64,000 nt of DNA from Candidatus Pseudoruminococcus merdavium (lineage in GTDB: Bacteria; Bacillota; Clostridia; Oscillospirales; Ruminococcaceae). This document shows positions 25,919 to 27,815 of this stretch, piece by piece. Position numbers and translations under genes: made by a program. The notes under the pieces were generated by a model. It did not search any database. It was not told the DNA's origin and was given only the letters and a program-made list of their open reading frames with translations. The stretch is taken from NCBI GenBank assembly GCA_904419745.1, contig CAJFSS010000010.1:1-64000 (forward strand). Reading direction: 5' to 3'. Position 1 is the stretch's first letter; each line of letters opens with the position of its first letter.

Positions 25919-26344
25919 TCATCTTATCACTCCCTCTCCACCCATTAGTAGGGTCATCTCTTTGATCCGTTCCAAGGGGAAAGGAGGAAGGCAGAGAGGT
26001 TTCATGGCAATCGACATCAGCTTCATTGGATTGTCATCTGCGGCAATTCGATTGGAACTCAGGGCGCCGCATCGCCGACAACGATGGACAATTGCCCATT
26101 CCCCGTTTTTCCGTACCCATACGGCAATCGGATCCATAATGCCCCCACAGTCTGCATCCCGATCTCCAGGTTCCCGATCCACATGCAAGCTGGCAAGACA
26201 ATTGGGGCAGTGGTTGCGGTGATCGCTTCCCGCTCCGCCGGAAACGACGGGCCGCCCACATACCTTGCAAGTAAAACTTTCTGTACAAGCATGTGTTTTA
26301 TAATAACCTTTTTCATATTTTTTTCGCTTATTTTCTCTGTTCAT
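25919..26344 (-). CDS. RNHCP domain protein
   Basis: 141-residue protein of the RNHCP family (named after a motif like that in DHRNHCPNCLASLHVD here). Function is not established for the family. Four zinc-type cysteine pairs are visible or partial: CKVCGR, CPNC, and CRRCGAL near residue 90, which is consistent with zinc ribbons. The N-terminus is strongly basic (MNRENKRKKYEKGYYK), suggesting nucleic acid contact. ATG 26344 has AAGGAG upstream. A long structured leader RNA with its own promoter and a terminator ends 61 nt before the ATG, so expression is probably controlled by termination or read-through. Confidence 0.88.
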   Translation of the reverse strand: MNRENKRKKYEKGYYKTHACTESFTCKVCGRPVVSGGAGSDHRNHCPNCLASLHVDREPGDRDADCGGIMDPIAVWVRKNGEWAIVHRCRRCGALSSNRIAADDNPMKLMSIAMKPLCLPPFPLERIKEMTLLMGGEGVIR

Positions 26345-26404
26345 GGAATGACTCCTTATCCTAAATCATGTACAAAATATTGTTTCAAATTATAAAATTT
26401 AGGA

Positions 26405-26663
26405 CAATAAAAAACGGGTGCCCCTGTCTTTCTGGGTCACCCGAAAACCTATTTTACCAAAACAGACAAAAACAAGAGAATCTCCAACACAATAGACAAA
26501 AGTTGGAAAATCCCTCTAAAATGAAAAGGAGTTTGACTGAATCCGCAAAATAAGTACAACAAGAAAACCCATCCCATATTCAAGATGAGAAACTATTCAT
26601 TGTCCTAACTTTAGCGGATTGCCGACATCAACATTCCTCCTTTCATAGTATAGATATATTTTA
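26405..26663 (-). ncRNA. Candidate structured leader RNA or small RNA upstream of the RNHCP gene
   Basis: I do not recognise the class. On the minus strand a promoter (26658-26686) precedes about 255 nt that fold into three parts. First is a long rod: AUGAAAGGAG (26637-26646) pairs with CUCCUUUUCAU (26521-26531), and inside it AUCCGC (26614-26619) pairs with GCGGAU (26541-26546), with further short helices. Second is a hairpin closed by UCCAAC/GUUGGA (26482-26507). Third is a terminator (26408-26443). The rod hides GGAGG and a five-codon frame, ATG TCG GCA ATC CGC TAA, at ideal spacing. It may be a leader peptide attenuator, a riboswitch or a free RNA. These pairings were read by eye, not computed. 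Confidence 0.5.
26408..26443 (-). terminator. Terminator ending the structured leader RNA
   Basis: CGGGTG/CACCCG with an inner CCC/GGG helix is followed by TTTTTTATT on the minus strand only. This fixes the direction of transcription towards the RNHCP gene. Confidence 0.8.
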
Positions 26664-26686
26664 TCATAACAAAACCTTAATTACAA
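26658..26686 (-). promoter_or_regulatory. Predicted promoter of the structured leader RNA
   Basis: TTGTAA (complement of 26681-26686), a 17-bp spacer and TAAAAT (complement of 26658-26663) on the minus strand, in an otherwise AT-rich stretch. Confidence 0.6.
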
Positions 26687-27699: not shown

Positions 27700-27722
27700 C
27701 CTCCATACCCTATCCCCTAACC

Positions 27723-27760
27723 CAGACAAGCCGTACCGGAATTCCGGTACGGCTTGTCTG
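27723..27760 (+). terminator. Perfect 38-nt palindromic terminator
   Basis: CAGACAAGCCGTACCGGAA is followed directly by its exact complement, then TTCTTTT. It ends the spoIIR/DUF378 region. Confidence 0.85.
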
Positions 27761-27815
27761 TTCTTTTAAGGTCAAATGGATAAAATGCTGTTCAAAGAAA
27801 TTTTAATATTTCGCA

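Follow-up and report, generated by a model that had tools for sequence, protein, structure and literature searches.

A leader RNA conserved ahead of RNHCP genes in gut Clostridia is very likely a mef(A)/mef(E)-type transcription attenuator

What is the long, folded RNA that lies directly ahead of a gene of the RNHCP family (PF12647), a family without known function that no paper in the open PMC literature was found to name? We addressed this question in a 64,000-nt stretch of Candidatus Pseudoruminococcus merdavium (contig CAJFSS010000010.1, positions 1 to 64,000), referred to as the window, whose minus strand carries at 26663-26399 an extended −10 promoter, an SD, a five-codon ORF encoding MSAIR, a rod-shaped fold and an intrinsic terminator. 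The regulated gene, for a 141-aa RNHCP protein (E 4.6e-40), follows at 25919-26344 on the same strand. An earlier note, read by eye, had left a leader peptide attenuator, a new riboswitch and a free RNA as options; every part that it described, namely the rod helices, the GGAGG, the five-codon ORF and the terminator, was confirmed on the minus strand. The first option is now strongly supported by a conserved ORF, a covarying rod, an alternative antiterminator and homology to the mef(A) attenuator, and these comparisons make it very likely that RNHCP expression is governed by a mef(A)/mef(E)-type transcription attenuator driven by ribosome stalling.

The element, all of it on the minus strand, opens with a promoter-like site (26658-26686) in which TTGTAA and TAAAAT are spaced by 17 nt and an extended −10 TG-N precedes the latter, placing the predicted transcription start near 26650. 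The promoter that had been claimed here is borne out by the homologues, most of which carry an extended −10 about 30 nt 5' of the leader ATG. Both the leader SD (GGAGG, 26636-26640) and the leader ORF (AUG UCG GCA AUC CGC UAA, 26611-26628) are buried in a rod of about 110 nt (26521-26646), the candidate anti-antiterminator. It is made up of an outer leader-SD helix (AUGAAAGGAG with CUCCUUUUCAU, 26646-26637:26531-26521), helix A:A' (AUCCGC with GCGGAU, 26619-26614:26546-26541), whose strand A consists of the final codons of the ORF, and helices B:E and C:D. Segment B (AGGACAAUGAAUA, 26594-26606) has E as its partner in the rod and B' as its alternative. T1 (CUCAUC...GAUGGG with a U-rich tail, 26561-26589) is a weak internal hairpin with its stem-loop at 26589-26568, is conserved in all homologues, and may serve as a pause hairpin or a weak early terminator. 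The switching strand D-E-A' (GAUGGGUUUUCUUGUUGUACUUAUUUUGCGGAU, 26541-26573) can pair either with the 5' strand of the rod or with the 5' flank of the terminator T2, where its antiterminator partner (26434-26458) comprises GGUAAAAUAGGU (26458-26447) and the T2 5' arm GACCCA. T2 itself (CGGGUGACCCAGAAAGACAGGGGCACCCG UUUUUU, that is CGGGUGACCC...GGGGCACCCG UUUUUU; 26409-26443; −14.5 kcal/mol) has an equivalent in nearly all homologues and ends 64 nt before the RNHCP start. Finally, segment B' (26399-26414), composed of the U-tract and AUUGUCCUAA, covers the U-tract and the next AUUGUCC and can pair with B or with the RNHCP translation start region (26352-26366), where AUUUAGGA pairs with UCCUAAAU of B' and the SD reads AAGGAG.

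The 276-nt stretch is predicted to fold far more stably than its dinucleotide shuffles (−81.9 versus −60.9 ± 4.7 kcal/mol; z = −4.45, 0/200). The rod drawn in the earlier note is present, but the full stretch is predicted to reach its minimum free energy in a different, competing fold that the note's reader had overlooked. UUAGGACAAU:AUUGUCCUAA closes this fold, which gave the first hint of a switch. In fold predictions for the window RNA, T2 disappeared once a ribosome footprint (−4 to +28) at the leader stop was masked; with the footprint at the start codon, T2 stayed.

Nucleotide search alone found one clear relative within the family (G072). In the regions ahead of the RNHCP genes of the family and order, G072 and four other genera have a leader that begins AUGUCGGC, with an identical succession of segments after it. 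A search pattern derived from these five seed elements yielded 48 stretches when the species collection was scanned, 34 of which match covariance model R1 at ≥56.8 bits, while chance pattern matches received no R1 score. The pattern demanded AUGUCNGCN(A/G)U, so conservation of those letters across the 34 loci partly reflects how the loci were selected; the five seed genera were found independently of that requirement. The loci fall mostly in Lachnospiraceae and Oscillospirales, with carriers in Lachnospiraceae (Blautia, Mediterraneibacter, Lachnoclostridium, Merdimonas, Roseburia and others), Butyricicoccus, Agathobaculum and Ruminococcaceae-like genomes. The parts vary in their retention: T2 is not recognisable in L102, the U-tract is broken in L095, and B' is absent from L083 and part of the Lachnospiraceae homologues. 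A weak R1 match (L081) inside a long open frame was set aside as chance-like, as were weak matches (L133-L135) to a second model, R2; neither RNHCP nor a resistance leader lies near any of them. Scanning IMG/VR with the pattern gave two viral matches only, neither of which fits the element.

In all 34 loci the leader ORF has five or six codons and reads MSA[IVM][RC](K/R), with the K/R optional. Synonymous changes occur (UCG/UCC, GCU/GCA/GCC), and the stop, right after codon 5 or codon 6, may be UAA, UGA or UAG; because the in-frame stop is held in place by these different codons, we take the leader to be translated. RNHCP, as a single gene or a tandem pair, lies directly downstream in 34/34 R1-matching loci. 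This constancy bears on the idea of a free small RNA, for example a 6S-like one, that merely adjoins RNHCP, which the element's own promoter and terminator and its rod shape would suit. Given also that the alternative pairings extend into the terminator and the RNHCP start, and that the genome has its own 6S RNA elsewhere, we regard a free RNA as extremely unlikely. A specific assignment to 6S RNA (RF00013) was rejected, with no Rfam match here and the genome's 6S on another contig.

We then asked whether the rod is maintained by compensatory change, as the earlier note had proposed to check. A structure-free MAFFT alignment of 31 sequences, folded with RNAalifold, returned a consensus that contains the rod helices leader-SD, A:A' (in which leader codons pair with GCGGAU), B:E and C:D. 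Relative to a null of 400 simulations in which each alignment column evolved on its own along the inferred tree, covariation was high for both A:A' (score 195, null 18 ± 24) and the leader-SD helix (score 302, null 51 ± 38), and neither score was exceeded in any simulation (0/400). A lack of covariation, which the earlier note had named as counting against its reading, was not what this check showed. Shuffle and slid-partner controls agree, and an earlier five-sequence version of the analysis also exists. Compensation in A:A' is exemplified by CGC-GCG, CGU-ACG and UGC-GCA; B:E and C:D are nearly invariant and thus too conserved to covary. Since the rod is so conserved, an all-against-all covariation scan with an R-scape-like null was without power and returned zero significant rod pairs; the named-pair tests took its place. 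A repeat or mobile-element reading of the 17-nt inverted repeat was also rejected, as the repeat is single copy in the genome and covaries as an RNA pairing.

The alternative pairings were assessed by comparing each sequence's own partner with partners swapped in from other homologues, without phylogeny correction and with a divergent subset used to limit the effect of kinship. D-E-A' pairs with its own T2 flank and 5' arm at −24.7 kcal/mol on average, versus −20.4 kcal/mol when swapped (11 most divergent sequences, p < 1/5000), and the duplex of D-E-A' with the T2 flank in the window amounts to −24.5 kcal/mol. Own partners were likewise preferred for B:B' (−15.3 versus −12.9 kcal/mol, p < 1/5000), the preference at both pairings extending to the divergent subset, and for B' with the RNHCP SD (−10.7 versus −8.0 kcal/mol, p = 0.0002). 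The rod and the alternative pairings are mutually exclusive, and both are supported by these comparisons.

In the attenuator that we propose, transcription would start near 26650. Where nothing disturbs translation of the leader, the ribosome would read MSAIR and leave, the rod would form through the leader-SD helix, A:A', B:E and C:D, and, with the 3' strand of the rod occupied, T2 would fold and stop transcription near 26409. A ribosome held on the leader by a ribosome-targeting drug, most likely at the last codon or the stop, would instead cover strands A and B and keep the rod from forming; the freed D-E-A' could then pair with the T2 5' flank and 5' arm as an antiterminator, and RNHCP would be transcribed. 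At the level of sequence, comparison shows the promoter, the ORF, the rod, the alternative pairings, their conservation and the homology to mef; from there we infer stalling as the trigger, a drug as its cause and a role for RNHCP in the response. A second, translational layer is probably added at the RNHCP start, because segment B', overlapping the U-tract, is a possible partner of B and otherwise can fold onto the RNHCP ribosome-binding site. Against both layers acting at once, a B segment covered by a stop-held ribosome would exclude simultaneous B:B' pairing. Control might even be mainly translational, with B' on the RNHCP SD, B freeing it and the terminator secondary: the B':SD pairing is specific, and a purely translational leader of the same logic precedes other RNHCP genes. 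We consider this improbable given that conservation is strongest in T2 and its competing partner, whereas part of the Lachnospiraceae lack B'.

Where does such an attenuator belong? When 391 genomes of the class were searched blind with model R2, its best match besides the window was L132 (37.3 bits, E 1e-6 per genome), which, like the weaker match L136, lies upstream of an MFS pump most similar to Mef(A); their leader peptides are MYSVRLR and MTASIRLR. The mef leaders besides L132 had modest scores of 14-24 bits, on a par with the 21 bits that the reverse strand of the window itself receives. Leader position, B:B', D-E:T2 and spacing are the same in mef(A) of phage phi1207.3, phage phi1605 and an Enterococcus plasmid. 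The mef(E) leader has been dissected experimentally: macrolide induction is controlled by its 8-codon ORF MTASMRLR, a first stem, a terminator and two distal repeats, of which dIR1 follows the leader and dIR2 lies on the U-tract (Chancey 2015, PMC4335068). Deleting dIR1 of mef(E) made expression constitutive. As in mef(E)/mel and mef(A)/msr(D), the RNHCP element has, close to the transcript 5' end, a short leader ORF served by an SD of its own; the ORF lies inside a first stem (R1/R2) to be disrupted, here the covarying rod; dIR1, just past the stop, corresponds to B, and dIR2, over the U-tract, to B', except in those Lachnospiraceae homologues that have none; and an intrinsic terminator, T2, stands 5' of the regulated gene. 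The switching strand UUUUUUGUUGUGCUUAUUU, the order of parts and the leader-to-terminator distance are shared as well. Unlike its mef counterparts, the element has a leader of 5-6 codons, MSAIR(K/R), regulates RNHCP rather than an efflux pump, and is chromosomal in many gut genera, with no signs of mobile elements noted. The RNA and RNHCP thus form a unit, as had been suggested; its suggested novelty did not hold, and the element is most likely a member of the known mef/mel kind acting on an uncharacterised gene family rather than a new kind of regulator.

The same comparison leaves little room for a ligand-binding riboswitch in which the ORF is incidental, an idea prompted by a conserved structured RNA and terminator upstream of a single gene family. 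ORF, SD and stop are conserved despite varying stop codons and lengths, the ORF is exactly what the rod buries, a leader-peptide attenuator proven by experiment has the same architecture, and no Rfam 15 riboswitch class matches at gathering score or at E<=5, in agreement with the earlier statement that no known class fits; we judge a riboswitch very unlikely. A permissive Rfam scan of 24-29 kb gave nothing beyond chance-like matches around the element.

Other attenuators resemble the element more loosely. In vmlR of Bacillus subtilis, a uORF (MIN) hairpin, a pause hairpin, an intrinsic terminator and an SD-sequestering hairpin are combined (PMC9226507); this four-part logic of buried-uORF anti-antiterminator, pause hairpin, terminator and SD hairpin is shared with the RNHCP element at the level of layout, but the sequence differs, the leader has 3 codons and an ABC-F ATPase is regulated. 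In the erm(K)/erm(D) attenuators (MTHSMRLRFPTLNQ), likened here by description, a leader peptide controls termination 5' of a ribosome-related resistance gene, and the leader RNAs of mef(E) and erm(K) are reported to show no homology (PMC4335068).

The macrolide arrest motif R/K-x-R/K does not occur in the leaders MSAIR, MSAIRK and MSAIRR. This motif defines macrolide sensing and not the attenuator architecture, and our claim concerns the mechanism, not macrolide sensing; lacking the +x+ motif of MTASMRLR, MSAIR may respond to a different inducer.

The RNHCP family itself offers further clues. The protein is a zinc-finger protein whose predicted structure (pLDDT 77) has no fold match in the PDB, so its function cannot be read from its fold; a PDB sequence search gave weak zinc-site matches only. 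RNHCP is fused in a single protein to RsgA, the 30S-subunit assembly GTPase, (L033:442-1872 (+), G096; Pfam). A possible leader ORF, MLSRVVKVVFFKK followed by a stop, precedes the RsgA-RNHCP fusion, and several further RNHCP matches, with open frames of 471-508 aa, may represent this fusion too.

Among 41 RNHCP proteins sampled regardless of leader class, the MSAIR-type element precedes five genes, whereas 16 carry a second leader that looks like a translational attenuator (L019, L022-L025, L027, L029, L030, L032, L035, L039, L053, L056, L059, L065, L067). Its ORF, for the most part 11-18 codons long, has GGGAGG at its end or directly beyond; CCUCCC and the RNHCP SD GGAGG follow, and the pairings of this leader favour own over swapped partners. 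The ORF mostly ends in E[IRS]V, with the SD-mimic GGGAGG 2-3 nt past the stop or inside the ORF end. Seven of the 41 have a MarR-like gene directly upstream, a winged-helix gene assigned by sequence motif (L018, L026, L034, L051, L052, L054, L073; for example L026:1864-2325 (-)). Tandem RNHCP pairs, a shorter CPNCGW-type paralogue followed by an MNRENK-type one, occur in L083, L085, L089-L091, L095, L103-L108, L113, L114, L116-L122, L129, L073 and L028. Upstream of RNHCP in L036 we observed yet another leader type, unmatched by the models, with the ORF MTCVMGEARG, a terminator and AUUGUCCGG. Within the window, a perfect long GC-rich hairpin at 27720-27763 (GAACAGACAAGCCGUACCGGA / UCCGGUACGGCUUGUCUGGGU), between DUF378 and short-chain dehydrogenase genes, is probably a terminator; its Rfam mir-9338 match was rejected as a perfect hairpin distinct from the RNHCP element.

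The RsgA fusion also bears on what the leader senses. By the same RNA mechanism, it could register general translation stress (slow initiation, assembly defects, shortage of charged Arg or Ile tRNA, slow termination), which would suit both the partnership with an assembly GTPase and the absence of a known drug-arrest motif from MSAIR. VmlR, moreover, is induced by ribosome assembly defects as well (PMC9226507). The leader has no run of a single amino acid typical of amino-acid attenuators, however, and its nearest relatives by model search are drug-resistance leaders, which leaves general stress a possible but rather unlikely signal.

The drug-responsive mef-type reading suggests that RNHCP proteins are part of the cell's response to ribosome-blocking drugs. 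More broadly, the mef-type leader, the second leader class and the RsgA fusion converge to suggest that RNHCP expression is tied to the status of the ribosome. Tentatively, and with somewhat less than even confidence, we propose that RNHCP is an unrecognised drug-inducible, ribosome-acting stress or resistance family of gut Clostridia, silenced by leader-peptide attenuators of two or more independent kinds (mef-type, and translational with an SD-mimic past the leader stop), and that the mobile mef attenuator and this chromosomal RNA lineage are related. Mef-type gating in many gut genera gives rise to the hypothesis that RNHCP works at or near the ribosome and is produced in response to stalling by drugs or other stress, and the RsgA-RNHCP fusion and the second, unrelated leader class point the same way. 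The analysis also yields a covariance model, together with a testable marker by which silent but inducible genes for translation stress might be recognised in commensal Clostridia.
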